47,433 bases of DNA. Source: a virus. The notes beneath the pieces were generated by a model. The model was not told the origin of the DNA, did no database searches, and was given only the letters and a program-made list of their open reading frames with translations. The DNA is taken from positions 1 to 47,433 of the IMG/VR virus record IMGVR_UViG_3300025383_000039. The stretch is one strand, 5' to 3'. Positions 1,040 to 28,389 of the stretch are shown piece by piece (positions within the stretch are counted from its first letter, which is position 1; every line of letters starts with the position of its first letter). The position numbers and the translations under genes were made by a program.

Positions 1040-1041
1040 TG

Positions 1042-1047: not shown

Positions 1048-1056
1048 TAGTTTATT

Positions 1057-1494: not shown

Positions 1495-1500
1495 TATAAT
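1495..1500 (+). promoter_or_regulatory. Extended -10 (TGATATAAT), leaderless start
   Basis: TGA-TATAAT followed by exactly 6 nt and the ATG at 1507, which places +1 on the start codon. It overlaps the last codon and stop of the previous gene. Confidence 0.65.
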
Positions 1501-1506
1501 TAAACC

Positions 1507-2481: not shown

Positions 2482-2493
2482 TAAAAACTAGTG

Positions 2494-2499
2494 TATAAT
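2494..2499 (+). promoter_or_regulatory. -10 hexamer TATAAT
   Basis: Transcription would begin near 2506, so the in-frame ATG at 2502 would be excluded and translation would start at 2544. Confidence 0.55.
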
Positions 2500-2543
2500 T
2501 AATGATAGATATTGCTTTAAAGCAATTCAATTTTGGAGGAAAT

Positions 2544-2885
2544 ATGCCACATAATATTATAGTAAATGATTTAAATCAAGTTGAATGTTATGAAGAGGGA
2601 TCTAAAATCCCGCATCTTCGTCAACCACATTGGCCTGATGGAACGCATTGGGCAGATGCAGCAGAAGCCCAACAATGGGCAGACCTGTATGCAGCATCAG
2701 AGAATGATGCAAATGCACCTTTTGCTCCAGATTCCAAAGGAAAACCTGGCTTAGTAAAACATGTAAGTCCACAACAAATAATATCTTTTAATGATGGAGT
2801 AAGTTTATTAAAAAATTCTACGACCTTAGAAGAAAAGAAAAGTGCTTATCAAGCTTTTATAAAAGCTAAAAAGGGGGGAAATTAA
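2544..2885 (+). CDS. Hypothetical small phage protein
   Basis: 113 residues. The start at 2544 is chosen because GGAGGA (2535-2540) precedes it at good spacing; an upstream ATG at 2502 has no ribosome site. The sequence has a Trp-rich stretch (HWPDGTHWADAAEAQQWADLY, residues 29-49), an APFAPD segment at 58-63 resembling the FAP motif of its neighbours, and a Lys-rich C-terminal helix. It ends immediately before the beta-propeller gene, so the two are probably co-expressed. No family is recognised. Confidence 0.75.
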   Translation: MPHNIIVNDLNQVECYEEGSKIPHLRQPHWPDGTHWADAAEAQQWADLYAASENDANAPFAPDSKGKPGLVKHVSPQQIISFNDGVSLLKNSTTLEEKKSAYQAFIKAKKGGN

Positions 2886-3986
2886 ATGTCTTTAGGTAAT
2901 ACTATTTCAGGGCAAGCCACACTTTCTGGCTCAGTAATATTTCAAATATCTTCTTCGGGTGGTTCAGGTGGAAGCAGTGGTATTTATGTAGCAATAAGTG
3001 CTGGAGGTCCTACAGCTTACTCTAGCGACGGTGTCACTTGGACGCAAGGAAGCAATTTAATTATACAATCTCAGATTGATATTTATGGATACCAGTCTGT
3101 AAACTGGATATCAATAGCATACGGAAACAATAAATTTGTTGCAATAGAAAATAACGGAGTAAGTTCGGCAGGTTTTACTGGACAAGAATATGCTTATTCA
3201 TCGGACGGTATGAATTGGACAGTTGGAAATCTACCATTTGCCAGCAACTGGGACAGTGTGGCATATGGAGATGGTAAATTTGTTGCTGTTGCATCATTTG
3301 ATTTAGGTTTTAATCCTATAGGTTTAACTGCGTATTCAACTGATGGAATTAATTGGTCAACCTCAGCAATCTCAAATCCAGATAATTTATCTTTTGGAGA
3401 CATTAAATATGCAAACGGAAAATTTGTTTCTTTTGCTGGCTGTGATTCTAATTTTAATCCAACGCAAAAAGCAGCATACTCCACAGACGGAATAAGTTGG
3501 ACAAATGTTACACTACCAGTAGCAGATTATTGGTATCGATCCGAATATGGAAATGGAATTTGGTACGCTGCTGGTGTACTAGGAAATTCAATTTCTTCTA
3601 CAGATGGAATAACATGGACAGTGGCTTCTCCACTTTTAAGATGGGATGGAGTTCCTTTGTCAACATTTAATTTAGCTTATGGTGATTCAAAGTTTGAGGT
3701 TTTATCAAATCAAAGTCTGGACGGATTCGGCGGACCAACTTTTACCCTATATTCCTCGGACGGCGTTACTTGGACACAAGGAACTGGACCAGAAGCAGGT
3801 TATAGCCCTGTATTTTACGGAGCAATGATTTATGCAAATGGTAAATTTGTAGCAGTTAATCATGATTCAGGAGATGGTGGTTTGACAGATCAAGCAGCAT
3901 ACTCCACAGACGGAATAAGTTGGACAAATGTTACACTACCAGTAGCAGACAACTGGACAGCTCTAGGAACATCATTTAGTTCGTAA
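2886..3986 (+). CDS. Seven-repeat beta-propeller (BNR/sialidase-like) protein, likely tail-associated
   Basis: 366 residues. Seven S-x-DG-x-x-W Asp-box motifs (such as YSSDGVTW, YSTDGISW) alternate with YGN/D-x-KFVA strands, as in a seven-bladed BNR/sialidase-type propeller. No catalytic sialidase residues are evident, so a glycan-binding or adhesion role is more likely than hydrolysis. A Gly/Ser-rich linker lies at about residues 27-37. A 58-bp stretch is perfectly duplicated (3469-3526 and 3892-3949), showing recent blade duplication or conversion. Confidence 0.75.
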   Translation: MSLGNTISGQATLSGSVIFQISSSGGSGGSSGIYVAISAGGPTAYSSDGVTWTQGSNLIIQSQIDIYGYQSVNWISIAYGNNKFVAIENNGVSSAGFTGQEYAYSSDGMNWTVGNLPFASNWDSVAYGDGKFVAVASFDLGFNPIGLTAYSTDGINWSTSAISNPDNLSFGDIKYANGKFVSFAGCDSNFNPTQKAAYSTDGISWTNVTLPVADYWYRSEYGNGIWYAAGVLGNSISSTDGITWTVASPLLRWDGVPLSTFNLAYGDSKFEVLSNQSLDGFGGPTFTLYSSDGVTWTQGTGPEAGYSPVFYGAMIYANGKFVAVNHDSGDGGLTDQAAYSTDGISWTNVTLPVADNWTALGTSFSS

Positions 3987-4041
3987 TAGTGGTATAGTCC
4001 TGAGCATGACTGTAAAAAACTGCTCATATTTAAATATAATG

Positions 4042-4047
4042 TATAAT
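4042..4047 (+). promoter_or_regulatory. -10 TATAAT for near-leaderless gene
   Basis: TATAAT ends 7 nt before the ATG at 4055. A second TATAAT sits at 4035-4040. Confidence 0.55.
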
Positions 4048-4054
4048 TAGTTAC

Positions 4055-4372
4055 ATGAAGAAAGTCTCGTCATCTTTAGCATTTTATATACAGAAATACC
4101 CAGCAAGATTGTCTGGTTATCTTTCTGCTATGAGTCTAAATGCTATGAAATATTGGCCAACTTTTCCGACTGGATTGTTAATACCTTTTGCTATGATTTT
4201 AATAATGATTGGCGAAGGTAGCCAGAGAATTGAAGATAAGAAAACACTTCAAGCTTTGTATACAGAAAACGATCCTCATAAAAAAGATGAGGAGATTCTA
4301 GCGGAAATGATAGAACATTTAGAGACTAGTAAAAAGGAGAAGAAAAATGGCAGAGCAAAAAGATCTCGTTGA
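4055..4372 (+). CDS. Small membrane protein
   Basis: 105 residues. A hydrophobic segment (about residues 44-58, TGLLIPFAMILIMIG) may be preceded by a weaker one at about 18-30; a highly charged, Lys/Glu-rich tail follows. The charged tail and short length would suit a holin-type or accessory membrane protein, but no family motif is visible and no lysin is adjacent. Its 3' end overlaps the Dps gene by 26 nt and contains the Dps ribosome site. Confidence 0.65.
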   Translation: MKKVSSSLAFYIQKYPARLSGYLSAMSLNAMKYWPTFPTGLLIPFAMILIMIGEGSQRIEDKKTLQALYTENDPHKKDEEILAEMIEHLETSKKEKKNGRAKRSR

Positions 4373-4805
4373 TGCACTTGTGAAATTACAGTCGCTTGTA
4401 GTAAAGATGTACGGACAAGCACACGGGTATCATTGGAATGTAGAAGGTGCAGGTTTTCCACAATATCATAAGTTTCTTTTAAAGATTTATTCAGACGTAT
4501 ATGAGTCAATTGATCCAATCTCAGAGAATCTTCGCAAACTAGGAGCAAAAGCACCATTTGGCGTAAAAGAATGGAATGATAATAGCGATCTTGAAATTAA
4601 TGACTCAGAAGGACTGGGTGTTAAGCAAATGCTACAAGAACTATTGAATACAAATACAATAGTTTTGGCTATGCTAAAGCGTACATTTGACATTTCAAAT
4701 GAAGTAGATGAGCAGGGAATTTGTAATTTTATTGCTGGCAGAATTGAACAACACCAGTTTTGGGGTTGGCAGTTGACAGCAACGCTTAAGCCTACTATAA
4801 TGTAG
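4347..4805 (+). CDS. dps: Dps-like DNA-protecting ferritin
   Basis: 152 residues. H29 in YHWNV, H41, D56 and E60 reproduce the Dps intersubunit ferroxidase ligands (H-W-N...H...D-x3-E), and LG-x-KAPFG follows as in the family. Dps dodecamers oxidise Fe(II) with H2O2 and can coat DNA. AAGGAG precedes the ATG. In a phage it could protect incoming or packaged DNA from oxidative damage; that role is inferred. Confidence 0.9.
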   Translation: MAEQKDLVDALVKLQSLVVKMYGQAHGYHWNVEGAGFPQYHKFLLKIYSDVYESIDPISENLRKLGAKAPFGVKEWNDNSDLEINDSEGLGVKQMLQELLNTNTIVLAMLKRTFDISNEVDEQGICNFIAGRIEQHQFWGWQLTATLKPTIM

Positions 4806-4811
4806 TCATAA

Positions 4812-4884
4812 GCCCCTGTAGCTCAGCGGATAGAGCATATGGTTTCTACCCATCAGGTCGGGAGTTCAAATCTCTTCAGGGGTG
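4812..4884 (+). tRNA. tRNA-Arg (anticodon UCU)
   Basis: A complete cloverleaf can be drawn: acceptor GCCCCTG/CAGGGGT, D-stem GCTC/GAGC, anticodon loop TTTCTAC (anticodon TCT) and T-loop TTCAAAT. The outermost anticodon-stem pair is mismatched and the T-stem has two G-U pairs. CCA is not encoded. It decodes AGA/AGG, common in this AT-rich genome. It is the only tRNA seen in the window. Confidence 0.92.
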
Positions 4885-4887
4885 CTA

Positions 4888-4917
4888 TTGACAATCATAT
4901 ATCGCATACAATACAAT
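4888..4917 (+). promoter_or_regulatory. Sigma70-type promoter TTGACA-18-TACAAT
   Basis: TTGACA at 4888-4893 and TACAAT at 4912-4917, starting 3 nt after the tRNA. It drives the subtilase gene with a leader of about 22 nt. Confidence 0.8.
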
Positions 4918-4945
4918 ATCTATATCTACTAACAAAGGAAAAGTA

Positions 4946-5863
4946 ATGAACGCACGTAAATTTTTAACAGTAATTGCAACAATTGTGGCATTAATTGGTT
5001 TGACAATCGGCTTTATAAATAAAACATTTGCTGCAACAAACCCTACAGTTGTTATTGTTGATACAGGATATGATCCTTCCGTGACACAATTTGCTAATAA
5101 GATTGTTTATGAGCAATGTTATACTAGTTTTTTTGCTTCTTGCCCAAATGGTAAGTCAACAATGAGTGGAGCAGGATCAGCAGCACTAAGTCCCGCACAA
5201 CTTGCAGTTACTGGAACTGGTCATGGTAGTGAAATGATGGCTGGAGAAATTGCTACAAATCCAAACATTAACTTTGTATACATTCGTGCTTTTTCTATTG
5301 AAACAAAACCAGCATTAATGATTTCTCCTTATGATAGTGATTTGCCTACAATTTTAAACTGGGTTGCTGCAAATGCATCAACATACAATATTCAAGCAGT
5401 AGCAATGAGTTTTGCAAGACCAGTAACAGGTGTATGCCCAGTAAATTCAGCAATTGCAGCATCTACCGCAAAGTTAACATCACTAAACATTCCAGTATTT
5501 GCTGGTGCTGGTAATGATGGCAATGAAAATGCAATTGATTTTCCAGCATGCAATCCAGGAATTATTTCAATTGGCGGGGAGATGAATAATGTACCTGCAT
5601 ACTGGAGTAATTATAGTCCTAATATTGGATGGGATGCTTTGGGCACACTTACAGTTAATTCAGTAGGAAATAAGCCAGTAACATCTATTGGAACATCTAT
5701 TGCTACACAAATTTCAGCAGCATCATGGGTTGCGATTCGTCAAGCAAAGCCTACATTAAATTATCAACAAATCTACTCTTTAATTCGCAATACTGCAAGT
5801 GTATCAAATGCTGTATATGCTAAGAATGTACCCACTTTAAATCTGACAGCAGCATTGAAGTAG
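4946..5863 (+). CDS. Secreted subtilisin-like (S8) serine protease
   Basis: 305 residues. An N-terminal signal peptide (about residues 1-30, cleavage near TFAA) is followed by the S8 catalytic triad in order: D39 in VIVDTGYD, H93 in GTGHGSEMMAG and S251 in GTSIAT; the oxyanion Asn is N190 in AGAGNDGN. The protease should act outside the cytoplasmic membrane. It has a strong promoter of its own, and the next gene has a separate promoter, so it is a single-gene cargo unit. AAAGGAAAAGTA lies before the ATG. The target, whether surface protein, competitor factor or its own virion, is unknown. Confidence 0.88.
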   Translation: MNARKFLTVIATIVALIGLTIGFINKTFAATNPTVVIVDTGYDPSVTQFANKIVYEQCYTSFFASCPNGKSTMSGAGSAALSPAQLAVTGTGHGSEMMAGEIATNPNINFVYIRAFSIETKPALMISPYDSDLPTILNWVAANASTYNIQAVAMSFARPVTGVCPVNSAIAASTAKLTSLNIPVFAGAGNDGNENAIDFPACNPGIISIGGEMNNVPAYWSNYSPNIGWDALGTLTVNSVGNKPVTSIGTSIATQISAASWVAIRQAKPTLNYQQIYSLIRNTASVSNAVYAKNVPTLNLTAALK

Positions 5864-5865
5864 GG

Positions 5866-5871
5866 TATAAT
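5866..5871 (+). promoter_or_regulatory. -10 TATAAT, leaderless start
   Basis: Exactly 6 nt separate TATAAT from the ATG at 5878, so +1 should be the start codon. It directly follows the subtilase stop. Confidence 0.65.
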
Positions 5872-5877
5872 TAAACT

Positions 5878-6213
5878 ATGGATGAACCAGATTTTGATGA
5901 ATTCTTTGATGATATGACAGACGAGGAAACAGAGTTTGTCATTCAATATTTAGTTGATCGTGGTGCTGCCGAATGGGACGGCATGGATCAATATGGTGAG
6001 AGAATGTTTAGGTTTAATATGGATATCTTAGCTGAAGTAATGCCTGAACTTTGGCAACAAGTCATGGAAGATGTTGATCAAACGCTGTTGGAGCTTTTTG
6101 AGGCGGGATTGGCAAATGTTGAATATGATGAGAATCTTGAGGCTACAATTAGCCTTACAGAAGAGGGCGAGCAAATTCTTAAGCATTTGGGCATGGATTT
6201 TCCAGAAAACTGA
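5878..6213 (+). CDS. Acidic protein, possible winged-helix
   Basis: 111 residues, strongly acidic at the N-terminus. Residues 69-103 (LLELFEAGLANVEYD, then LTEEGEQIL) resemble the recognition helix, wing and closing helix of winged-helix regulators, and residues 20-48 have a similar pattern. No named family is recognised. If it binds DNA it is one of the few regulator candidates here. Apparent leaderless transcription. Confidence 0.65.
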   Translation: MDEPDFDEFFDDMTDEETEFVIQYLVDRGAAEWDGMDQYGERMFRFNMDILAEVMPELWQQVMEDVDQTLLELFEAGLANVEYDENLEATISLTEEGEQILKHLGMDFPEN

Positions 6214-6237
6214 CTTTCAATTTTAATGGTAATAAGG

Positions 6238-6243
6238 TATAAT
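6238..6243 (+). promoter_or_regulatory. -10 hexamer TATAAT
   Basis: Predicted +1 near 6250, so the leader is about 18 nt and contains GGTGGTGA (6253-6260) before the ATG at 6268. Confidence 0.55.
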
Positions 6244-6267
6244 AAACTTAAAGGTGGTGATTTAAAT

Positions 6268-6507
6268 ATGGATAACAATCAGCAAGGCAAGGATGGCGGA
6301 GTGCAACAACCAGCATCTGCTACTCCAGTAACAGAGCAAGCAGGACCAGACGGTGGCTCAAAGTCACCATCAGTTATAGATTTTGGTGTACACAACCCAC
6401 AGGTTGCTACAACACAAGGTGCTTTTACAGGAAAAGATGTTTCAATGACAACTGCACAATATGCAGGTGGACCAATTGCAACAACAGAACCAGGATCACA
6501 CGCATAA
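6268..6507 (+). CDS. Small low-complexity phage protein
   Basis: 79 residues, rich in Gly, Gln, Pro, Thr and Ala with little predicted structure. The start at 6268 is chosen for its GGTGGTGA ribosome site and because an upstream in-frame start at 6226 precedes the -10. It ends directly at the start codon of the next gene, so the pair is probably coupled. It may be a flexible virion-associated or scaffold partner; no family is recognised. Confidence 0.7.
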   Translation: MDNNQQGKDGGVQQPASATPVTEQAGPDGGSKSPSVIDFGVHNPQVATTQGAFTGKDVSMTTAQYAGGPIATTEPGSHA

Positions 6508-7350
6508 ATGGAACTCGTACAAAAAAGAGAGTTTACAGATGAACAGCGTGATAAGTTGGCAGCAGCAGGACATGCTATGCCAGACGGTTCTTTTCCTATT
6601 GAAAACATAACTGATTTGCACAATGCAATTCAATCTGTAGGTCGTTCTAAAAATTATGCTGCTGCTAAAAAGCACATAATTCAAAGAGCAAAGGATTTGC
6701 AGGCAACTAATGTTCTTCCAGAAGATTGGAAGATTTCTAAGTTTATTGACGATGTTAAAGATGCTTTTGAAAAAGCTATCGGAACTTCATCTTCAGTAGA
6801 TCAAGAGCGTGACGAAAGAAGCGTTGAAAATTATGTAAGACAAACTGCAAATACTAATGTAATTGCAGCACAACCTAACGACTATACGATTGGAGGAAAC
6901 ACAATGTCAGATCAAACAACAGAGCCAGATCCAAAGGGAAATATTGCTGTTCAGAAAGATTTTCCAACTGCATCAGGTACACTAGTAAACCAAGAGACAC
7001 GCCCAGAGGGTGGAGTTTCAGTTTCAGATGCACCTAACAACCCAGGAGTTGTTCCAGACCAAGCAACAATTCCAAGTGATGCTACTTCTGCACCAACACC
7101 AGAACGTGCTGGAGAGATGAATCAGCCTACAAAGATCACAAAGTCAACAACTTGTCCAGACTGCGGTGCCAATATGGTACATGAGTGCTGGGGAGATTCA
7201 ACTGATGTAAACAAGGCTGCGGGAGCAGATGAAGTTACAGAAGAAAATGACAACGATCAGCCAGTGGAAAAGGCAGTAGATGCACCAGTTGCACCACAAG
7301 CAGAAATTAAAAAGTCTATTTGGGGCGGAGCATTTGCACCACGTAAGTAA
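6508..7350 (+). CDS. Phage protein with DUF6582-like domain, zinc knuckle and terminal FAP motif
   Basis: 280 residues. Residues 8-75 (GHAMPDGSFPI, then ITDLHNAI, HIIQRAKDL and PEDW) match a small domain common in actinophage and other phage head proteins; the name DUF6582 is from memory. A linker follows, then a second part from M133, which has its own strong ribosome site. C-TTCPDCG...HEC may bind zinc, and the last ten residues contain IWGGAFAP, the motif found twice at 1507-2481. Two products, 280 and 148 residues, are plausible. A terminator follows. Confidence 0.75.
   Translation: MELVQKREFTDEQRDKLAAAGHAMPDGSFPIENITDLHNAIQSVGRSKNYAAAKKHIIQRAKDLQATNVLPEDWKISKFIDDVKDAFEKAIGTSSSVDQERDERSVENYVRQTANTNVIAAQPNDYTIGGNTMSDQTTEPDPKGNIAVQKDFPTASGTLVNQETRPEGGVSVSDAPNNPGVVPDQATIPSDATSAPTPERAGEMNQPTKITKSTTCPDCGANMVHECWGDSTDVNKAAGADEVTEENDNDQPVEKAVDAPVAPQAEIKKSIWGGAFAPRK
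6892..6906 (+). promoter_or_regulatory. Internal ribosome binding site and in-frame start
   Basis: GGAGGA (6892-6897) lies 6 nt before an in-frame ATG at 6904 (residue 133 of the surrounding gene); it is stronger than the site at the annotated start. Confidence 0.6.
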
Positions 7351-7372
7351 TTAATTATATATACGTATATAT

Positions 7373-7407
7373 ACACATAAGGACGGGAAACCGTTCTTAT
7401 GTGTTTT
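7373..7407 (+). terminator. Rho-independent terminator
   Basis: A 14-bp stem (arms 7373-7386 and 7391-7404, one G-U pair) with a GAAA tetraloop, ending in TTTT. Closes the 6268-7350 unit. Confidence 0.85.
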
Positions 7408-7420
7408 AAGAGAGGAAATC

Positions 7421-7789
7421 ATGAAAGTATTAGTTTTTGGTAGCAAAGATTGGGAAGATTATAATGATCTTATCCGTCAAGTAACTTTATTAATTGAAGA
7501 TAATAAAGTTTATTATCCACAAGATAAAGAGTTTCTTTTTGTCCACAAAGGGCTAAAAGGTGCTGAAAACATGATTACCGAATATATCGGTAAAACTGAA
7601 AGATTTCTTGCACAAAAAGGGTACAAGATCAAGGAACAACTAATTAGAGATAAATCTCCTCTTGCAGATGTTGCTATGATTGAATCCGAGCCTAGCATTG
7701 CCTTGGTTTTCGGGGAATGTGCTAGAAATAAACAGGTCATATCTTTGCTGGAAGCCTATAATATTCCTTATCGTTATTTCAAGGAATAG
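7421..7789 (+). CDS. SLOG/DUF2493-like nucleotide-binding protein
   Basis: 122 residues. The N-terminal KVLVFGSKDW and later FVHKGLKGAENM, followed by an acidic/helical C-terminal half, fit the Rossmann-like SLOG superfamily (YspA/DUF2493), whose members bind nucleotide-derived ligands. The family appears widely in phages and defence contexts. It follows the terminator and ends just before the GroES-operon promoter, so it seems to be transcribed alone; its own promoter is not obvious. Confidence 0.7.
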   Translation: MKVLVFGSKDWEDYNDLIRQVTLLIEDNKVYYPQDKEFLFVHKGLKGAENMITEYIGKTERFLAQKGYKIKEQLIRDKSPLADVAMIESEPSIALVFGECARNKQVISLLEAYNIPYRYFKE

Positions 7790-7791
7790 GC

Positions 7792-7820
7792 TTGACAGAT
7801 AATGATATCGCTGATACAAT
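7792..7820 (+). promoter_or_regulatory. Sigma70 promoter TTGACA-17-TACAAT
   Basis: TTGACA 7792-7797 and TACAAT 7815-7820 with ideal spacing. It drives the GroES-WhiB-thioredoxin operon, with a leader of about 23 nt. Confidence 0.85.
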
Positions 7821-7849
7821 ATAATGTAACTACTAGTAGAAAGAACTAA

Positions 7850-8155
7850 ATGACAAATATTGAACCGCTAGGTGGACTTGTCTTAGTAAAAGAAATCCAA
7901 GAGCAGGATACTCAAACCGCATCAGGTTTAATTATTACTGCATCTGCTATGGAATCAAAACTTTCACGAGGACAAATTATTAAAATGGGTCCAGGAGAAA
8001 GAGATCAAAATGGAGTAATTCATCCATTGCCACTAAATATTGGTGACGTTATTATTTATAACGACATGCATGCAACTGAAATAACCGACAGCTCTGGCGA
8101 AAAATATCAATTTATTAGCTGGAGAAACCTATTTGGAACGGAAAATAATGCCTAA
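7850..8155 (+). CDS. groES: GroES-like co-chaperonin
   Basis: 101 residues, the usual Cpn10 length. PLGGLVLVKE, a mobile-loop region (TASGLIITASAME), GQIIKMGPGERDQNG, GDVIIYND and a C-terminal YQFISWRNLF follow Cpn10 order. It would cap host GroEL and help fold phage proteins, as T4 gp31 does. It is the first gene of the operon and its stop overlaps the next ATG by 8 nt (ATGCCTAA). Confidence 0.9.
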   Translation: MTNIEPLGGLVLVKEIQEQDTQTASGLIITASAMESKLSRGQIIKMGPGERDQNGVIHPLPLNIGDVIIYNDMHATEITDSSGEKYQFISWRNLFGTENNA

Positions 8156-8378
8156 GATTACATTTAATTATGAGCAAGCTCATGATTTTGTAGCTAAAAA
8201 CAAGCATAATGGTTTTTATTGGGATGGCTATACCATTACACGATGGATCCCAAGTACCAAGGGCTATGCACAAACAAACGGTATGTTTAAAAATAATCAG
8301 TGGGGTGAAGTATTTCGCAATCCGCTAAACTCTAACGGAGAATGGGATATTCCAGAAGCCTATGGAAAGTTTATTTAA
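8148..8378 (+). CDS. Hypothetical phage protein
   Basis: 76 residues, starting at ATG 8148, which overlaps the GroES stop; an upstream in-frame TTG at 8133 is less likely. The sequence is rich in aromatic residues and Asn (FYWDGYTITRWIP, NNQWGEVFRNP) and looks like a small beta-rich fold. No family is recognised. It lies inside the GroES-WhiB operon and overlaps WhiB by 17 nt. Confidence 0.7.
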   Translation: MPKITFNYEQAHDFVAKNKHNGFYWDGYTITRWIPSTKGYAQTNGMFKNNQWGEVFRNPLNSNGEWDIPEAYGKFI

Positions 8379-8688
8379 ATTTATCGGTATTGATGATGAA
8401 GATATCCAATGGTATCATCTAGCATCATGTAACGGAATGACAACTAGTTATAAGTTTGATTGGTTTTATGATCTTTATGAAACAGATAAAGAAGTAGCAA
8501 AGCAAGTTGATCAAATATGTATGAACTGCCCAGTTATTAAAATCTGTCATTCAGAAGGCGTAAAAAATAAGGAGAAGGGTGTTTGGGGTGGAGTTTATAT
8601 GGATCTAGGTAGACCAGATAAGCAATACAATGATCACAAAACTCCAGAAGTTTGGAAGAGGTTAAAAAAACTTCATGCACAGAAGTAA
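8362..8688 (+). CDS. WhiB-family Fe-S transcription factor
   Basis: 108 residues. The four cluster ligands are present: C23 in ASC, then C53-x2-C56-x5-C62, followed by the diagnostic turn GVWGG (73-77) and a basic tail (residues 97-108). WhiB proteins carry a [4Fe-4S] cluster, bind sigma factor region 4 and are restricted to Actinobacteria and their phages, so this is the clearest host clue. In phages they reprogramme host transcription or block superinfection. It is a plausible partner of the unusual minus-strand promoters. Confidence 0.9.
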   Translation: MESLFKFIGIDDEDIQWYHLASCNGMTTSYKFDWFYDLYETDKEVAKQVDQICMNCPVIKICHSEGVKNKEKGVWGGVYMDLGRPDKQYNDHKTPEVWKRLKKLHAQK

Positions 8689-8950
8689 GTATACAAAAGA
8701 TATAGCAAGAAAAATACGTGAGATAAAACCTCCCGTTAGAAACTTGCTGCTAGATATTAGGGATAGACCTAATTATCTGGCGTTGACTGTATACGAAAGT
8801 AATATCATGGAGTATAATGAAACAGATAGAATGGCAATCATGAACTATCTGCTTTTAGTAAGACAACTTATTCAATCATTTGGCATAGCCTGCGAATTAG
8901 AAGGGATGAAGTATACTGATGAACAACTCAGAAGAAGAAGATCTAAGTGA
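8675..8950 (+). CDS. Hypothetical basic protein
   Basis: 91 residues, basic at both ends with a very basic C-terminus (LRRRRSK). Mostly helical, with YNETDRMAIMNYLLLVRQLIQ as the longest amphipathic stretch. It overlaps WhiB by 14 nt and the next gene by 32 nt. Nucleic-acid binding is possible from charge alone; no family is recognised. Confidence 0.7.
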   Translation: MHRSKYTKDIARKIREIKPPVRNLLLDIRDRPNYLALTVYESNIMEYNETDRMAIMNYLLLVRQLIQSFGIACELEGMKYTDEQLRRRRSK

Positions 8951-9137
8951 AGAAACTGTAACTTATGTCTATATACCTGACGAGGGAGTATATGGAACTA
9001 TTGTGTCACAGGGTGCTTGGGCATCAATGATAGAGTATTTTGATGGTGGCGTTGGATACACTATTGAAGTGCCAAATGATGAATTTATTGAAGTAAATGA
9101 AATAGGTATTGGTTATTTAAATGAAGGAGATTTTTAA
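8919..9137 (+). CDS. Small acidic beta-rich protein
   Basis: 72 residues. An acidic N-terminus is followed by alternating beta pattern (TYVYIPDEGVYGTIV, ASMIEYFDGGVGYTIEV) resembling a small barrel. The ATG lies inside the upstream gene (32-nt overlap), and the stop shares one base with the next start. No family is recognised. Confidence 0.65.
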   Translation: MNNSEEEDLSEETVTYVYIPDEGVYGTIVSQGAWASMIEYFDGGVGYTIEVPNDEFIEVNEIGIGYLNEGDF

Positions 9138-9367
9138 TGCTTTGCTTTAGTTGCAATAAATCTAAGCAACAATTAACACCAGTAAAATCAAGTCTTTTGT
9201 CAGGAATGCAGCTTTTCCTATGTCAATCTTGTCTTGATTTAAAGTACGAGCCACGCTGGGTTGTTATTTTGGCGGGTAGACAAAAAGGTCCTGAGTATGT
9301 GCGTGAACATATTGTTAAGAATCTATATGTAGGTAATAAAATATCAGCGGAGGAAATAATTGCTTAA
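9137..9367 (+). CDS. Small zinc-ribbon protein
   Basis: 76 residues with C3-x2-C6 and C29-x2-C32 knuckles, typical of a four-cysteine zinc ribbon, then a short helical tail. Its start overlaps the previous stop by one base (TAATG), and its stop overlaps the thioredoxin TTG start by 8 nt. Small zinc ribbons of this type in phages often bind proteins or nucleic acid; the partner is unknown. Confidence 0.75.
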   Translation: MLCFSCNKSKQQLTPVKSSLLSGMQLFLCQSCLDLKYEPRWVVILAGRQKGPEYVREHIVKNLYVGNKISAEEIIA

Positions 9368-9662
9368 GATAACAAATGATATAAATGAATTCAAGGCAGA
9401 AGATAAGTGTGTAGTTTATTTTACTGCTGAATGGTGTGGTCCATGCAAGCAATTGAAGCCACAATATGGTAAAGTATCGGTAACTGATCCAGATACTAAT
9501 TATTATATGCTTGATGTTGACAAAATACCTACAGATGAGTTATCATATTATAATATCCAAAGCATCCCGCAAGTTTTTGTAATGAAAAAGGGTGAGATTG
9601 CAAAGGTTATAAAGTCTAGAACTGCTGATGGCATTTTGTTAGAAAAGGATTCGGTGGAATGA
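9360..9662 (+). CDS. Thioredoxin
   Basis: 100 residues with the WCGPC active site (C26, C29), the cis-proline P70 in SIPQVF and thioredoxin strand order. The start is TTG, supported by GGAGG at 9349-9353 at ideal spacing; it overlaps the zinc-ribbon gene by 8 nt. Likely roles are reducing phage ribonucleotide reductase (33704-35638) or acting as a polymerase factor as in T7; the first is favoured because that reductase is encoded here. Confidence 0.92.
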   Translation: MLKITNDINEFKAEDKCVVYFTAEWCGPCKQLKPQYGKVSVTDPDTNYYMLDVDKIPTDELSYYNIQSIPQVFVMKKGEIAKVIKSRTADGILLEKDSVE

Positions 9663-10210
9663 CAACTATTGTTGCGGTTGCAAAAAACGGCAATGTAATT
9701 ATGGGTGCAGATTCTCAAACTACAGTAGGATCTAGACCTATCAGGCATCCAAAGATGGAAAAAATAACTAAGAATAATGGCTGGCTAATTGCTGGAAGTG
9801 GTGATGCTACTCCATGTGATTTGTTCCAACATCTTTTTGTTCCGCCAGTTCCAACAATTAAAGAGCGTCATGATTTGCACAAGTTTATGATTACTAAGTT
9901 TGTTCCAGCCATGCAAGACTTTTTGGAAGAAAATAATTATAAGCCCGATCCAAATGATAAGGATGCTGGTTTTAATATGCTTTTTGCATTTGACGGGGAA
10001 ATATTTGAAATTGGAAATGATTATACTGTAACACTTAATAGCGAGGGTATTTACGGTATTGGAAATGGTCATCAATTCGCTATTGGTGCGTTGTCCGCTG
10101 GTGCAAGTGTAGAGAAAGCTCTTGAAATTGCTGCTAACAATGATGTTTATACTTCTGGACCATTTCAGATTGTTAAGCAACAAAAGCATATGGTTCCAAG
10201 GAAACCTTAG
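9659..10210 (+). CDS. HslV / proteasome-beta-like Ntn hydrolase
   Basis: 183 residues. The start reads MTTIVAVAKNGNVIMGADSQ: removal of Met leaves Thr1, with D17 and a downstream Lys as in HslV and 20S beta subunits. IAGSGD and GALSAGASVEKALEIA, then DVYTSGP, also follow the HslV pattern. Such enzymes form rings that degrade unfolded proteins with a partner ATPase. No HslU-like gene is in view, so it may pair with a host ATPase or act alone. It overlaps thioredoxin by 4 nt and ends the operon. Confidence 0.82.
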   Translation: MTTIVAVAKNGNVIMGADSQTTVGSRPIRHPKMEKITKNNGWLIAGSGDATPCDLFQHLFVPPVPTIKERHDLHKFMITKFVPAMQDFLEENNYKPDPNDKDAGFNMLFAFDGEIFEIGNDYTVTLNSEGIYGIGNGHQFAIGALSAGASVEKALEIAANNDVYTSGPFQIVKQQKHMVPRKP

Positions 10211-10226
10211 AGTTTCCTGAGTTGCC

Positions 10227-10255
10227 TTGACATAAACAAAAACATGAGATAGAAT
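10227..10255 (+). promoter_or_regulatory. Strong sigma70 promoter TTGACA-17-TAGAAT
   Basis: TTGACA 10227-10232, TAGAAT 10250-10255, 17-bp spacer. It serves the secreted surface protein only. Confidence 0.88.
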
Positions 10256-10263
10256 AGAGTATT

Positions 10264-10295
10264 CGTGTTGCAATGACACGATTATCCTGTACAGG
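10264..10295 (+). other. Inverted repeats in 5' leader
   Basis: CGTGT...ACACG (10264-10280) and CCTGTACAGG (10286-10295) sit in the 57-nt leader of the surface protein gene. They could be mRNA-stabilising hairpins or an operator. Confidence 0.4.
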
Positions 10296-10318
10296 GATAC
10301 TAACTAGATAGGAAAATA

Positions 10319-11407
10319 ATGAACGTAACTAAGAAGATCGCTATTGCAACTGCTGCAGCTCTTGCAATCGTAGGTGTTTCAAGTGTTGCTCACGCTAACC
10401 CGTTGGCAGTAACTGTAGCATCTGTAGCAAACACAACAACATCTGCAGCACCAAAGACAGTTGCAGTTCCAGTATCAAATGTAATTGATTCATCAAATAC
10501 AGTAGCACTTGCTGCTACAGCAGATACAGGCACAGTTGTCACATATGTTGCATCAGGCGTTAAGCTTGTTTCAGCACTTAATACATCAAATGCTCCAGTT
10601 AATGTAGCATCAGGTGTATCATCAATTTCAGTAACATCAACAGGTGCAACAGTAACTGTTTATGCTTATACAACTTCTACAGCAGTAGGTTCTGTAACCA
10701 TTACAAATGGTGCTTACTCTACTATTGTTTATATTCAGGGAACAGCAGGAGTTGCTGCAAATATTGCAGTAAATCCTCCAGCATCAGCAGCAGTTAATAC
10801 TGCTCCAACAATTTCAGTTTCAGCAACTGACGTTTTTGGAAATCCAGTAGCATCTGAGGCTATTTCTGTCACTTTGATTGGTGCAACATTTTCTGATGGA
10901 ACAATTACCAAGACACTTACAACTTCTGCAGTTACTTCTGCAGCAGGAGTAACACCAGTCACAGTTATTGGTTCAGCAACAGGCACTTTGTCTGCAGTTT
11001 CAGCAGGTACAGTAACTGTAGTTGCCACAGATACTTCAATTGCAGCAACTTCTACAGGTCTTCCTGCAGCAGTCAAGACAGCAGTTGGAACGTTTGCAGT
11101 AACTGATCTTTCAGGTCAGGTTGCATCTTTGTCAGCAACAGTAGCATCACTTAACTCACAAATTGGGTCTTTGAATGCACAACTTGCTCAGGCAAATGCA
11201 GCACTAGCAACAGCAAACACAGCACTAGCAACAGAAAAGGCTGCTCATACAGCAGATAACGCAGCAGCAAAGTCGGCATCTGATGCACAGACTGCTGCTT
11301 TTGCATCAGTTCAAACTGCACTGCAAAATGCAAATGCTAAGTATGCAGCACTTGTTGCTAAGTACAACCTACAGGCTAAGAAGTATCACTTCTCAGCAAC
11401 TAAGTAA
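10319..11407 (+). CDS. Secreted Ala/Thr/Val-rich surface protein with coiled coil
   Basis: 362 residues. A clear signal peptide (residues 1-26, AHA cleavage) is followed by beta-rich, Thr/Ser/Ala/Val-rich segments with an Ig/invasin-like stretch around residues 155-245 (ISVSATDVFGNPVASEAISVTLIG) and a C-terminal coiled coil at about 263-350 (SLNSQIGSLNAQLAQANAAL). It resembles a bacterial cell-surface or S-layer-like protein more than a virion protein. It is flanked by a strong promoter and a strong terminator, the layout of a moron gene. Surface remodelling or superinfection exclusion is inferred. Confidence 0.8.
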   Translation: MNVTKKIAIATAAALAIVGVSSVAHANPLAVTVASVANTTTSAAPKTVAVPVSNVIDSSNTVALAATADTGTVVTYVASGVKLVSALNTSNAPVNVASGVSSISVTSTGATVTVYAYTTSTAVGSVTITNGAYSTIVYIQGTAGVAANIAVNPPASAAVNTAPTISVSATDVFGNPVASEAISVTLIGATFSDGTITKTLTTSAVTSAAGVTPVTVIGSATGTLSAVSAGTVTVVATDTSIAATSTGLPAAVKTAVGTFAVTDLSGQVASLSATVASLNSQIGSLNAQLAQANAALATANTALATEKAAHTADNAAAKSASDAQTAAFASVQTALQNANAKYAALVAKYNLQAKKYHFSATK

Positions 11408-13511: not shown

Positions 13512-14000
13512 ATGCAAACATTCCTTCCATACCCCGCCATGCGGGACAGTTTAGATGCATTGGACAACAAGCGTCTTAACAAGCAAATCCTAGAAACATA
13601 CCAAATTCTAAATGTATTGTCTGGTCAGTCCAAGTCTGGTGCTTGGCGTAATCATCCCGCTGTACTTATGTGGGCGGGTGCTGAGAATGAACTATGGCGT
13701 TATGGCATGACTGCTATTGCAGTTGCTAATATACGTGGTATCAAGACTGAAAACAATCTTGCTAATATGCAATCACTTGCTAGTAAAGCTGCGATATATT
13801 GGGGTAATGATGAACCTATGTGGCGTACAGACTCTAAAACACTTAAGCGTGTGACCACTACACATAAAGCAAATCTATATCGCAAAGACCCAGAATACTA
13901 TGCAGAATATGCATCTGCAGTTAATGATCAATATAATCAACCATGTTGTGACGGCTGCCAATACTATTGGCCTACCCACCCATTAAGGAGTAAAAAATGA
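13512..14000 (+). CDS. Pyrimidine-dimer DNA glycosylase-like (Pyr_excise) protein
   Basis: 162 residues. MQTFLPYPAM, LDNKRLNKQILETYQIL, GAWRNHPAVLMWAG, and a later CCDGCQYYW are the pattern of a phage family related to T4 endonuclease V (DenV), which excises UV-induced pyrimidine dimers. The family link is recognised by pattern only. Ends with ATGA overlap into the next gene. A DNA-repair role would suit a sunlit freshwater host. Confidence 0.72.
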   Translation: MQTFLPYPAMRDSLDALDNKRLNKQILETYQILNVLSGQSKSGAWRNHPAVLMWAGAENELWRYGMTAIAVANIRGIKTENNLANMQSLASKAAIYWGNDEPMWRTDSKTLKRVTTTHKANLYRKDPEYYAEYASAVNDQYNQPCCDGCQYYWPTHPLRSKK

Positions 14001-15195: not shown

Positions 15196-15450
15196 ATGAG
15201 CAAGAAATCTAAACCCTTATACCGTATTGTCGTAGAGCCAGGAGGCGGTCATGGTCAATACCCAAAGTATGAAAAGTTTTGGCATATTGAAAAATGGGAT
15301 GACAAGCATAAGCGTTACTTTAGTCATGGGAATGGTGGCTTAGCATTTACCAAATTGGGTATGTGGCGGGCTATTAGAAAAGAACTAAAAAGAATTAATG
15401 CTGGCTACACAGTACAGCATTTTACTATTAATGGGGTAAGAATTGATTAG
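15196..15450 (+). CDS. Hypothetical basic protein
   Basis: 84 residues, basic and rich in aromatics (YRIVVEPGGGHGQYPKYEKFWHIEKW). The ATG follows the preceding stop without a gap; the stop overlaps the dUTPase TTG start by 8 nt. No family is recognised. Confidence 0.65.
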   Translation: MSKKSKPLYRIVVEPGGGHGQYPKYEKFWHIEKWDDKHKRYFSHGNGGLAFTKLGMWRAIRKELKRINAGYTVQHFTINGVRID

Positions 15451-15871
15451 TGTTAATGTAAAGAGATTAAACAGTTCAGCTAAGATACCAACATATGCAC
15501 ACATCGGTGATGCTGGAGCAGATTTATATGCGTCAGAAGATGGTGTCCTATTAGCTGGTATGGGTGGTACAGTACCTACTGGCATTGCCATGGAAATCCC
15601 AGAGGGCTATGTGGGTTACATTAACCCACGATCAGGGCTGGCTACCAAAGGTATTACAGTTGTTAATGCTCCAGGAACTATTGACTCTGGCTACCGTGGC
15701 GAAATCAAAGTAATTATGATTAATCATTCTCAGCAAGATTACAAGATTTTAGCAGGAGACAAGATTGCACAGATGGTGTTTCATAAGTACCACGAGGTAT
15801 TCTTTGAGCCAGTTGATGAACTTGCATTAGGTTCTCGTGGAGATAAAGGCTTCGGAAGTAGTGGAAAATGA
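15443..15871 (+). CDS. dut: Trimeric dUTPase
   Basis: 142 residues with all five trimeric dUTPase motifs in order: DAGADLY (23-29), NPRSGLA (61-67), NAPGTIDSGYRGEI (75-88), AGDKIAQMV (104-112) and RGDKGFGSSG (132-141). It converts dUTP to dUMP, keeping uracil out of DNA and feeding dTMP synthesis; it pairs functionally with the ribonucleotide reductase. The start is TTG, overlapping the previous gene. Confidence 0.95.
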   Translation: MISVNVKRLNSSAKIPTYAHIGDAGADLYASEDGVLLAGMGGTVPTGIAMEIPEGYVGYINPRSGLATKGITVVNAPGTIDSGYRGEIKVIMINHSQQDYKILAGDKIAQMVFHKYHEVFFEPVDELALGSRGDKGFGSSGK

Positions 15872-16612: not shown

Positions 16613-16694
16613 TCAAGAAGACTGCAAGCATAAATGGATGCTGGTAGCACAGGATATTAAGTGCGAATGGTGTGGCAAAATATGGCGGGCTTAG
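16602..16694 (+). CDS. Tiny zinc-finger protein (TTG start)
   Basis: 30 residues with C8, H10 and C21-x2-C24 (CEWCGKIW), a common phage micro zinc finger. TTG at 16602 overlaps the preceding stop, with AGAGGATA about 7 nt upstream; the 3' end overlaps the methyltransferase gene. Confidence 0.5.
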   Translation: MSNNQEDCKHKWMLVAQDIKCEWCGKIWRA

Positions 16695-17404
16695 GAAAAG
16701 TATACACCCTAGGTAAGCATATAGGTAATATAGAAGATACCAACCCTAGAATCAAAGATGCTATTTTAGATTGCGATGTCATATTTGCTAAGAATGATGA
16801 ACTATTCCTACAATTTTGTAAGGATTTAGGCATTGAATACAATGGCTTAGTTATCCATAATGATCCTGGTATCCTATACCCAGAGGATGAATCTAACCAT
16901 GAAAAGGCTGTAGCCTATCTTCAAGAGGGTAAAAACATAGGAATTATTACAGATGTAGGAACTCCTGTAATGGAGGATGCTGGCGGACTTATATTTAGAA
17001 CAGCAAGAGCTATAGGTATTCAGCCTATAATCATTCCTGGATTGAACTCTAATTTTATAGCTTTACAACATGCGACGGGGCTGGGATTTAGAAAATTCCA
17101 TCTAGACGCTAGACTATCCTATAATAAAGATATAAGAGTAAAAGAACTAAATGCCTATAAGGATAAAGACTATATGGCTGTACTATATATCTTTGAAGAG
17201 GATCTCTTGGATACACTATGGGATATATACCAAGTATTGCCAGAGATAGAGCATATGTATCTTTGTATGGACTTGACCAAGAGCACAGAAACGATATTTG
17301 TAAATAGTGCATATGGTCTATGGCAAGAACTTACTGCCTATCTTGAAGATAACCCGCCTAAATTTGAATATGAAAATCAAAAATGGTTTGTTCTATGCTT
17401 CTAA
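16682..17404 (+). CDS. RsmI-like SAM-dependent (tetrapyrrole-methylase fold) methyltransferase
   Basis: 240 residues from ATG 16682 (an upstream in-frame ATG exists at 16667). YTLGKHIGNIED, GKNIGIITDVGTPVMEDAGG and IIIPGLNSNFIALQHATGLG correspond to the three signature blocks of RsmI, which 2'-O-methylates C1402 of 16S rRNA. Length is slightly below bacterial RsmI. The phage copy could modify ribosomes or another RNA. It is the last gene of the plus-strand run, before the convergent junction. Confidence 0.8.
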   Translation: MAGLGKVYTLGKHIGNIEDTNPRIKDAILDCDVIFAKNDELFLQFCKDLGIEYNGLVIHNDPGILYPEDESNHEKAVAYLQEGKNIGIITDVGTPVMEDAGGLIFRTARAIGIQPIIIPGLNSNFIALQHATGLGFRKFHLDARLSYNKDIRVKELNAYKDKDYMAVLYIFEEDLLDTLWDIYQVLPEIEHMYLCMDLTKSTETIFVNSAYGLWQELTAYLEDNPPKFEYENQKWFVLCF

Positions 17405-17472
17405 AATGGAGCAAAGTGGAGCATTGTGGAGAATAAATTCAGTAATTAATATTTAAATATCTATTCATTATA

Positions 17473-17488
17473 TGTTTCACGTGAAACC
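17473..17488. promoter_or_regulatory. parS: parS-like centromere site (ParB binding)
   Basis: TGTTTCACGTGAAACC: the 14-bp core GTTTCACGTGAAAC is a perfect match to the bacterial chromosomal parS consensus, which host ParB binds and spreads from. Only the outermost base of the 16-mer departs from consensus. No parA or parB gene is in the window. Confidence 0.82.
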
Positions 17489-17564
17489 TAGGTATAGAGC
17501 ATACCATAATGCCCATCGTAATGTCAATATGGAGCAATATGATAAATATCACATATAAAAATGG

Positions 17565-17580
17565 TGTGATTTTGCTCATA
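17565..17580. promoter_or_regulatory. CRP/GlxR-like palindrome (one mismatch)
   Basis: TGTGA-N6-TCATA, in the parS junction. Confidence 0.5.
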
Positions 17581-17636
17581 TTCTAGACAATTTTGATCTA
17601 AATGTACAATATATTGCACAAATTTAATTAATATTG

Positions 17637-17652
17637 TGTGATTATGATCACA
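17637..17652. promoter_or_regulatory. CRP/GlxR-like palindrome (perfect)
   Basis: TGTGA-TTATGA-TCACA, both half-sites perfect. Confidence 0.65.
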
Positions 17653-17683
17653 TTTTATATATATTTATTTTTTTATACATTTA

Positions 17684-17699
17684 TATGATCAAATTCACA
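17684..17699. promoter_or_regulatory. CRP/GlxR-like palindrome (one mismatch)
   Basis: TATGA-N6-TCACA; third site within 135 bp. Confidence 0.45.
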
Positions 17700-17845
17700 C
17701 CAGGGTGAATTATATATCCTTCGTAATGTCTTACTATATATGGTATAGGTTGTATTTATTGGACCAGTACGAATTCCCGCCCGTTCGTAATGTCCGAAGA
17801 AATTTTGGATCGGGTCGTAATGTCTGAAAAGCTGTTTGACCCCTG

Positions 17846-17880
17846 AAAAAAAGAAAGGCCCGCTGCCGAAGCAGCGGGCT
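17846..17880 (-). terminator. Rho-independent terminator of the minus-strand block
   Basis: Read on the minus strand: 9-bp GC stem (arms 17858-17866 and 17871-17879) closed by a C(UUCG)G tetraloop, then TTTCTTTTTTT. It ends the 20.7-17.9 kb minus-strand transcripts. Confidence 0.92.
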
Positions 17881-17901
17881 AGGATGTATTATTATCCTAT
17901 C

Positions 17902-18201
17902 TCATACAGCAAGGTATTCACCCTTTGATTCAGGTTCTCTACCTACTGGCAATCCCGTCAGGCCCAACTCCTTAAGGGATTCTAACATTGTCTTGCATTG
18001 CTGTTGAACCTCAGCGAGATACAACGGCACGTGCTTTGCGGTACCCATTTGGATAATGTAGTTAACAAAGTACTGCATGAAGGATTCGTTAACATACTTA
18101 GATTCATCTGTCATATGCATTGCTAGCACTGCAGGTGAACATCGAGAATCAGCAAGTATTTGAGCAAGCTTTTTATGTGCACTCTCTTCTAATTTAGCCA
18201 T
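17902..18201 (-). CDS. Hypothetical helical protein
   Basis: 99 residues, mainly helical (KKLAQILADSRCSPAVLAM, YLAEVQQQCKTMLESLKEL). A strong AAGGAGG lies before the ATG. The last gene before the UUCG terminator; overlaps the preceding tiny zinc gene by 8 nt. No family is recognised. Confidence 0.75.
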   Translation of the reverse strand: MAKLEESAHKKLAQILADSRCSPAVLAMHMTDESKYVNESFMQYFVNYIIQMGTAKHVPLYLAEVQQQCKTMLESLKELGLTGLPVGREPESKGEYLAV

Positions 18202-22241: not shown

Positions 22242-23282
22242 TTATTTTGTTAGAGCAAGAACTTGCTTAACAATTTTATTTTTTTCTGCTGTGATAACAG
22301 GGTCAAATCCTGAAGCACCTGCCATTAGCGAATCGCCATTTCCCTTGCGGGCTGTGCGGTAATAATCAAGGCGTTCGGTGAGAGCATTTACAACGCCCCA
22401 CGCTGTGCCCTTGATATTAGCATTGGTAGGAGAGTTGTGGTACAACTCATCAAGAAGAACAACCTTGTTCTCCCACTTCTTGATTGAACCCTTCTTGTCC
22501 ACTTCTGGCTTAGGGTACATCTTGTTAATAATTTCGCTGAACTTAGCGTTATTAACTTCGATTGCGAACAACTCTTGTGCTTGCTTTTCGAATTCGTCCA
22601 TGTAGGAGAATGTAAGACCAAGAGCCTCACGAGCAGCAGCAATTTTTCCGTCCACAGTCTGAGTGTGGCGAATCTTGAAAGATTGCTTAGCCTTCTTCAT
22701 GGCGAAATTGAGAGTGTTCTGACACATAACACGAACAGGGGTAATAGCAGACTGAACCGCTACTGAACCATCGTGTGAAGTGTAGACTACGAGATAAAGA
22801 TTGGTAGTGTCATTAGCACCATTGGGGTCAAGAACCATAGTGCGGGGAATTGACATTGTGCCAAATACAACACGACCATTCTTGAGAGAGCCAGCAGATT
22901 CCCAATAAACATCGGAATTGCCGTCATGTAGATTGTCTGCGAATGAGAATAAATCTTCATTCTGAACAGTCTTATAGCGAGAGCCTACAACAGACAGCAC
23001 ATCTTTTTGTCCTGCTGTATAAGGGTTATCACGAACAACCAAATAGTTGTCTGATACAGTAGTGTAATTATCCGCTAGCAAATCTGAAACAGATTCTAGT
23101 TGGACATTCCAATTAGAGAGTTTAGCACCCTCTAGCATTTGTGCGGTAGTAACGTTCTCGTCCTTATCAAAAATCTTGTTAGCAAAACTATGCCAAGCAG
23201 GATTAGTGCGTGTTGAAACAGCAAGAGAAACCTCTCCTGATTCAACTTCTGAACGGTGAACTTGCGACATGACGTTGGTCAT
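22242..23282 (-). CDS. DUF932 phage/plasmid-like protein
   Basis: 346 residues. AWHSFANKIFDKDENVTTAQMLEGAKLSNWNV, GSRYKTVQNEDLFSFADNL, ITPVRVMCQNTLNFAMKKA and the closing NALTERLDYYRTAR follow the DUF932 (TIGR03299 phage/plasmid-like) pattern. The family is frequent on phages and plasmids beside replication genes; its biochemical role is unknown. It is the largest gene of the minus-strand block and has its own promoter and terminator. GAAGG lies before the ATG. Confidence 0.88.
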   Translation of the reverse strand: MTNVMSQVHRSEVESGEVSLAVSTRTNPAWHSFANKIFDKDENVTTAQMLEGAKLSNWNVQLESVSDLLADNYTTVSDNYLVVRDNPYTAGQKDVLSVVGSRYKTVQNEDLFSFADNLHDGNSDVYWESAGSLKNGRVVFGTMSIPRTMVLDPNGANDTTNLYLVVYTSHDGSVAVQSAITPVRVMCQNTLNFAMKKAKQSFKIRHTQTVDGKIAAAREALGLTFSYMDEFEKQAQELFAIEVNNAKFSEIINKMYPKPEVDKKGSIKKWENKVVLLDELYHNSPTNANIKGTAWGVVNALTERLDYYRTARKGNGDSLMAGASGFDPVITAEKNKIVKQVLALTK

Positions 23283-27343: not shown

Positions 27344-27459
27344 TTTGGTAGGACAATTCGGACATTTCGGGCGCACTATATTTTTTTTGTGTTTTGTTTT
27401 CAAATGTGAATCATGCATTTTAAAAATCCATTAACATTTTGGTGAAATTGAAAATGGGG

Positions 27460-27465
27460 TACAAT
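27460..27465 (+). promoter_or_regulatory. -10 TACAAT, leaderless start
   Basis: Exactly 6 nt before ATG 27472; no clear -35 at the proper spacing. Confidence 0.6.
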
Positions 27466-27471
27466 ATAGAG

Positions 27472-28389
27472 ATGGACGCAAACTATAGAATAGATCAGGG
27501 CGGGAATGAGCTGAATGCTCAGATTGAATATCAGTCATATGAATTTATAAAGACTGAATCTTTCCCTGGGATATATTTACCAAAAATAAATCATGCCTGT
27601 ATTTACACTGAAGAGCGTAACAAGAAATTACAAATGCATAAAGAAGGAAAATGGTTGTTAGTAAAAACTGATGACAACTATTGTCATTTGATGACTCACA
27701 TTGGTGCGTATCTTATTCTAAAAGAAGAAATTCCAGATTTACAGATAGGATTTTTGCTGGGAAGAACAAAGCACATATCAATTGTGCATCAAGACATTAT
27801 GTCATATTTTGGAATTCCTACATTTCAAGCTATGGATCCTAGAGAATGGGATATTCACTTTGAGCAAATTTATGTTTCTACTGAATGGGGAGCATCTTTT
27901 ATGCAAAAAGCTGTAAATCAAGACATTGGTGCTCAAACTTTGCAAGTTGCACAATGCTTAAATCGGGTAGTAGAAGAATTTAAGCCATTTTTGAAGAAAA
28001 CAGATGAAAAGCATAAAATTTTTTCTAGCAGAAAGCTTAATAATTTAGATCATATATCTTTAGGGACATCGCATAGAACTTATTCTGAGGGAATTGACAT
28101 AGCTTTAGAAGGTGTTTATGAAGAATCAGGTTATAAAATAATGTCTTTTCAAGATACAGGGCTTTTTTATCAACTAAATATGTTTTATAATGCTTCTCAT
28201 GTGGCGGGAGTGGCTGGAACAGGCTTAATGAACACAATGTTCTCAGATCCAGATACAGAAGTTGATGAATATTTAACAAATAGGCAGTATTGGTCACCTT
28301 TTAAGTTCTTTTCACAATATTCTGGTGCTTCAATGAACTGGAACACCATAGATTTAACAGAAAATCAAGAATTTGGTGGAAATGTCTAA
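27472..28389 (+). CDS. GT61 / DUF563-like glycosyltransferase
   Basis: 305 residues from ATG 27472, chosen because the -10 places +1 there; upstream in-frame starts precede it. The C-terminal half (IFSSRKLNN, then GYKIMSFQDTGLFYQLNMFYNASHVAGVAGTGLMNTMF) follows the GT61/DUF563 signature with its late H/G-rich acceptor loop (AGVAGTGLMN in place of HGAGLTN). Likely a glycan-transfer enzyme acting on surface polymer or phage protein; the His of the HGAG motif is replaced by Val. Overlaps the oxygenase gene by 8 nt. Confidence 0.75.
   Translation: MDANYRIDQGGNELNAQIEYQSYEFIKTESFPGIYLPKINHACIYTEERNKKLQMHKEGKWLLVKTDDNYCHLMTHIGAYLILKEEIPDLQIGFLLGRTKHISIVHQDIMSYFGIPTFQAMDPREWDIHFEQIYVSTEWGASFMQKAVNQDIGAQTLQVAQCLNRVVEEFKPFLKKTDEKHKIFSSRKLNNLDHISLGTSHRTYSEGIDIALEGVYEESGYKIMSFQDTGLFYQLNMFYNASHVAGVAGTGLMNTMFSDPDTEVDEYLTNRQYWSPFKFFSQYSGASMNWNTIDLTENQEFGGNV

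Follow-up and report, generated by a model that had tools for sequence, protein, structure and literature searches.

The 47-kb IMG/VR record analysed here (the window, i.e. the whole stretch of 47,433 nucleotides), a fragment of an actinophage genome, carries a 14-bp palindrome, GTTTCACGTGAAAC, identical to the core of the bacterial centromere parS. On balance we favour the reading that the phage has acquired a true parS of the chromosomal type, but neither parA nor parB, and that host ParB is recruited through it to an origin- or terminus-like region of the phage genome. That the palindrome is a ParB site is nearly certain, and its binding by host ParB is very likely; that the benefit would lie in positioning or segregation of the phage DNA is an even call.

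In the proposed mechanism, host ParB-CTP clamps would load at the phage parS and slide across the neighbouring kilobases, and the region round the genome joint would become a host-type partition complex. Host ParA, and perhaps SMC, would position phage DNA, whether just entering the cell or replicating, on the nucleoid or in origin territory, and copies would thereby be spread inside the small host cell. Loading of ParB on the phage is to be expected, because one parS suffices in Corynebacterium glutamicum for ParB spreading of ~16 kb each way and SMC recruitment (PMC7083940), and because half-sites of the form GTTCCAC or GTTTCAC are targets of many ParBs (PMC7022226).

The parS site and the junction around it

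The 14-mer occurs only once in the window, where no other sequence comes closer than 3 mismatches. It matches the palindromic core GTTNCACGTGAAAC of chromosomal-type parS at 14 of 14 positions, and the 16-mer at 17473-17488, TGTTTCACGTGAAACC, agrees at 15 of 16 with the parS consensus TGTTTCACGTGAAACA, as quoted in PMC10197239. The original prediction had described an exact parS-core palindrome in a convergent non-coding junction; both statements are correct, the second because the site lies between the end of a plus-strand gene (17404) and that of a minus-strand gene (17902). The chance expectation of about 2 in 10,000 given there was reproduced from base composition and GC content (1.9e-4, or ~0.0002, copies in the window), and recurrence among relatives is stronger evidence than this figure. 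The features of the region are collected in Table 1.

Table 1. Features of the window discussed in the text
Feature	Position	Strand	Basis or remark
parS core GTTTCACGTGAAAC (A site), host-type	17474..17487	.	exact match, single copy in record
Convergent non-coding junction, AT-rich, 497 bp; putative counterpart of EGole terminus region	17405..17901	.	EGole comparison
TGGAG x3, 10-bp spacing	17407..17431	+	alignment of ~27 relatives; fourth copy 17530-17534
CGTAATGTC repeat	17517..17525	+	other copies 17722-17730, 17786-17794, 17816-17824, all +
TGTGATTATGATCACA palindrome, degenerate neighbours beside	17637..17652	.	within junction
Terminator-like hairpin of leftward gene block	17858..17879	-	inverted repeat I23 and T-run on - strand
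Left flanking gene, tetrapyrrole-methylase family (PF00590)	16661..17404	+	Pfam
Right flanking gene, final gene of leftward early block, unknown	17902..18201	-	ORF/profile data
DUF932 gene, query for relatives	22242..23282	-	PF06067 E 1e-56, phrog_1221
B-site counterpart, without parS in window	27405..27475	.	flanks compared by eye
WhiB-family gene, actinobacterial-host marker	8362..8688	+	PF02467 35.5 bits, cut-off 23.6

The exact 14-mer was present in 84 of 101 genomes of one Actinomycetota order (small genomes, 1-2 Mb), mostly once, and either the 14-mer or its GTTYCAY variants in 95 of the 101, with controls near zero. The earlier description of the site as host-type therefore holds, the same core and variants being found in host-like actinobacterial chromosomes. 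This order is likely the host group of the window phage. In genome G054, parS lies within the first part of rsmG; parA-parB follow downstream, and dnaA-dnaN are nearby. A second chromosomal site, at a distance of ~628 bp, takes the form GTTTCATGTGAAAC in G147, G148 and G151, a variant shared with the phages.

The window ribonucleotide reductase has 67% identity to that of Streptomyces phages of the EGole type, with which the window also shares DUF932 (~71% in DNA) and a matching gene order. The closest named family to which the phage appears related is Stanwilliamsviridae, judged from ribonucleotide reductase, DUF932 and gene order rather than from a genome-wide taxonomy. The window and 22 of 31 relatives encode WhiB, and among the control genomes the WhiB profile matched in C. 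glutamicum only. Because of WhiB and the kinship with Stanwilliamsviridae, the host is very probably an actinobacterium. Host assignment through metagenome-assembled genomes containing relatives was abandoned in favour of WhiB, as it gave Methylophilaceae, a cyanobacterium and Actinomycetota, and the binning was thus unreliable. The right arm of the window additionally contains ferritin-like (4347-4805), Cpn10 (7850-8155), dUTPase (15443-15871), pyrimidine-dimer glycosylase (13512-14000) and subtilase-family (4946-5863) genes.

In EGole, duplicated annotation reveals an 11.3-kb direct terminal repeat (1-11341 = 124313-135653). Non-coding DNA with TCGTAA repeats marks its left end, where a rightward block of genes meets a leftward one. 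The window junction is laid out alike and contains CGTAATGTC repeats. Since these repeats occur nowhere else in the window and the layout is that of EGole, the 17.4-17.9 kb segment is read, by gene order, as a putative genome-terminus region; a terminal repeat would follow from the same comparison. The original prediction had placed the site in a phage control region: a genome-terminus or origin-like region is the better reading. Within the junction, conservation across the family is highest in the TGGAG repeats (alignment of ~27 relatives), and the copies at 17407-17431 are a candidate packaging or replication signal. Single-stranded junction DNA folds better than shuffled sequences (z -3.7), probably owing to the terminator-like hairpin and the AT-rich palindromes.

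DnaA boxes (TTATCCACA) were 25-fold denser in the 500-bp junction of 25 relatives (28 in 12.5 kb) than elsewhere (43 in 473 kb), and control words in the same comparison gave 0. Clusters were noted at the junction in L127, L152, L156, L158 and L159, and EGole carries three boxes just outside its terminal repeat (L206 14220-14264), an arrangement also seen in some relatives of the window; the window junction has no TTATCCACA box. Such clusters may mark an origin of the host-initiator type at the end of the genome. The junction seems to be a place for host-protein sites in this phage family, with DnaA boxes in some members and parS in others. That parS and DnaA boxes might exclude each other there was considered and set aside, since four carriers without boxes, with about half of the other relatives having some, are too few.

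Stanwilliamsviridae (EGole and its kin) thus resemble the window in DUF932, ribonucleotide reductase, gene order and a convergent terminus with TCGTAA repeats. They differ in that EGole contains no parS at up to one mismatch, whereas the window family is AT-rich and comes from lakes and bogs.

Recurrence of the site among relatives

Relatives were collected as 80 IMG/VR loci fetched by DUF932; a search through the left flanking gene (tetrapyrrole methylase) found none. In a sample of 39 non-redundant loci, window included (684 kb), GTTTCACGTGAAAC was the commonest 14-bp palindrome, present in 8 loci compared with 3 for the runner-up and 0.0027 expected. Six of the eight occurrences are non-coding. 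The two coding ones (L136 and L137) are probably coincidence; together with L122 they were discounted, as members of the gene family share the protein motif ILFHVK/ILIHVK.

Such coding occurrences, which are probably chance, are what could be said for regarding the palindrome as a product of chance or of misassembly. The probability left to that explanation is minute: with 0.0002 copies expected in the window and 0.0027 in the 39-locus sample, and with the metagenomes being independent, the recurrence refutes it. Contamination by host chromosome was considered as a source of parS in IMG/VR and is likewise unsupported, because rsmG, parA, yidC, dnaA and dnaN were found in 0 of 197 parS-bearing viral loci among the matches listed, and ParB in one.

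The exact parS is located at the same junction (A site) in the window, L128, L142 and L145. In these four carriers, which were defined by the site, its columns are invariant at 14 of 14 positions compared with 54 of 105 flanking columns; in the other relatives the A position is AT-rich and agrees with the 14-mer at 1 to 8 of its 14 letters. Across the early block, at another intergenic boundary (B site), L133 and L148 have an exact parS, and L139 and L144 have GTTTCATGTGAAAC, with one mismatch. The four A carriers require four changes on the DUF932 tree, which points to repeated gain, loss or recombination. Where a locus spans A and B together, a site is present in 5 cases and absent in 8, and many relatives, some of them 96-120 kb long, contain no site at up to one mismatch.

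A sample drawn without using the site (ribonucleotide reductase; 80 partial loci, 1.0 Mb) contained 2 exact and 11 one-mismatch sites; all but one of the 13 are outside ORFs. Counting recurrent near-palindromes in this sample makes an unclean control, since the counts are larger for conserved coding sequence. The parS site is optional, not fixed, in the family, because many relatives are without it and only 13 of the 80 partial ribonucleotide reductase loci carry one. Absence from close relatives, by which the site was to be judged, thus gave a mixed outcome: three relatives share it at this junction and others have it elsewhere, once per genome, but many are without it.

Further carriers were obtained by a scan for the 18-mer ATGTTTCACGTGAAACCA, which returned 97 stretches and gives a set biased towards the exact site; more than 20 of the stretches are additional relatives. 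In 22 of these lake relatives, parS follows a tRNA-Ile(TAT) gene at a distance of 3-5 bp or ~126 bp (L058, L249, L285, L309, L284 and others).

The one-mismatch sites of the DUF932 and ribonucleotide reductase samples comprised 11 copies of GTTTCATGTGAAAC, 2 of GTTCCACGTGAAAC and 1 coding GATTCACGTGAAAC. As many as 42 kinds of one-mismatch site are possible, over all of which random decay would scatter. These variants bear on the idea that some other DNA-binding protein, of phage or host, uses the palindrome as its operator and that the likeness to parS is fortuitous. A position in non-coding control regions, in some cases near tRNA genes, would suit an operator, but the variants tolerated match host parS variants exactly, and one copy per genome at several unrelated places would be unusual; we regard this explanation as improbable.

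Copy number, partition genes and the role of the site

When one mismatch is allowed, a single site is found in every carrier record, both in a set of 10 and in a set of 26 (records of 115, 106, 98, 83 and about 72-78 kb among them). A ParB_N domain was found in 0 of 34 carrier records (L128, L142, L145, L148, L133, L139, L136, L137 and 26 others), a set in which L136 and L137 have a doubtful, coding site. There was likewise none in near-complete parS-less relatives (96-116 kb), and no ParA-type AAA_31 in the virus records searched. None of the 50 window ORFs scanned against Pfam encodes ParA or ParB, the window being a fragment. The lack of parA and parB noted at the outset is therefore confirmed for the window, and the search outside it, made in the relatives, also returned none. 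EGole has two short proteins annotated as 'ParB-like nuclease domain', both below the ParB_N threshold.

The proposal of a maintained phage-plasmid was not borne out. The EGole annotation contains no integrase, repressor or replication-initiator gene, and EGole encodes its own DnaB, primase and DnaE; this gene set of the annotated relative points to a virulent phage. Phage-plasmid ParABS systems (P1; extrachromosomal actinobacteriophages) have their own ParA and ParB and a private centromere. The window resembles them in carrying a centromere on a phage genome, whereas its family is without ParAB, uses the host's own sequence and has no plasmid-prophage sign. The phage site is closer to chromosomal ParABS in its identical 14-bp core, the same tolerated variants, few copies and an adjacent origin-like region, and differs in being viral and without parA or parB. 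In prophage CGP3 of C. glutamicum, AlpC/AlpA-alpS consists of a phage-encoded actin, an adaptor and many alpS repeats (PMC4446434); here too actinophage DNA is tied to positioning machinery via a DNA site, though this is not host ParB-parS.

The obvious candidate to bind a host-type parS without partition genes remains host ParB, as originally supposed, and its binding could serve the phage differently. Replicated phage copies might soak up host ParB and so stall chromosome segregation and division, to the profit of the phage. Host-like chromosomes mostly have one or two parS, a number that a few dozen phage genomes would exceed; partition genes would be unnecessary, and the position of the site would be irrelevant, as is seen. 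A decoy would, however, be expected in several copies per genome, and each carrier record holds exactly one; it also leaves unexplained the preference for intergenic spots by the origin- or terminus-like region or by tRNA genes. We consider titration unlikely, though the most serious competitor. Recruitment of host ParB is favoured over it because of the single copy per genome and the terminus- or origin-like setting.

A smaller probability still is given to a structural or regulatory role, in which ParB loading would bring in host SMC, or silence or insulate neighbouring genes, and thereby organise the phage genome rather than segregate it. ParB-parS does recruit SMC in actinobacteria, with spreading of ~16 kb on each side (PMC7083940), and the site is located at the edges of the early gene block; the gene layout, however, is the same in parS-less relatives.

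Orphan parS sites in other viral contigs

In IMG/VR viral contigs, a parS 15-mer was found at least 120 times and the more specific 18-mer in the 97 stretches mentioned above, compared with 14 for a control palindrome of the same composition (parS loci L002-L121 and L247-L323). Among the matches listed, 9 of 49 long parS-bearing contigs had any ParB_N match, and 104 of 217 sites lay outside ORFs of at least 80 aa, although ~90% of bases are inside such ORFs. Taken over these contigs as a whole, orphan parS is thus probably a more general viral feature.

Several groups of contigs were noted within this set. Two parS accompany a P22-like portal in L304 (10923-11246) and in L055, L255, L277, L279, L287, L307, L311, L312, L315 and L317, with a spacing of mostly ~293 bp (556 bp in L055 and L317). 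In L304 both fall within a 107-aa ORF (MFHVKH...VSRETF) that lies downstream of the portal gene, one at its first codons and the other at its last. A different group (L028, L073 and L084; GC ~0.5) has three to five parS within ~1 kb. Cluster 2, with many 5-kb pieces, was considered on grounds of length to represent microviruses, but L021 encodes a large terminase and these contigs are more likely tailed-phage fragments.

Phage ParABS has so far meant the self-encoded partition systems of plasmid-like prophages. We found no description of host-type orphan parS in phages in the open-access literature, most subscription papers and preprints lying outside the search. Tentatively, and with somewhat less confidence than for the window itself, orphan parS may be a widespread strategy, in which unrelated phages keep one or two host centromeres, mostly intergenic, and use host ParB-ParA-SMC; the terminus region of the present family, with parS and the DnaA boxes of relatives, would then mimic the oriC-parS region of the host.

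If true, the presence of a lone host-type centromere, one per genome, in phages whose genes look virulent would imply direct exploitation of the host segregation apparatus by viruses. This reading predicts host ParB on phage DNA, an altered position of that DNA and altered chromosome segregation in infected cells. The 14-bp marker may also link uncultivated viruses to ParB-bearing hosts, and the enrichment in IMG/VR suggests that orphan parS extends beyond the clade of the window.
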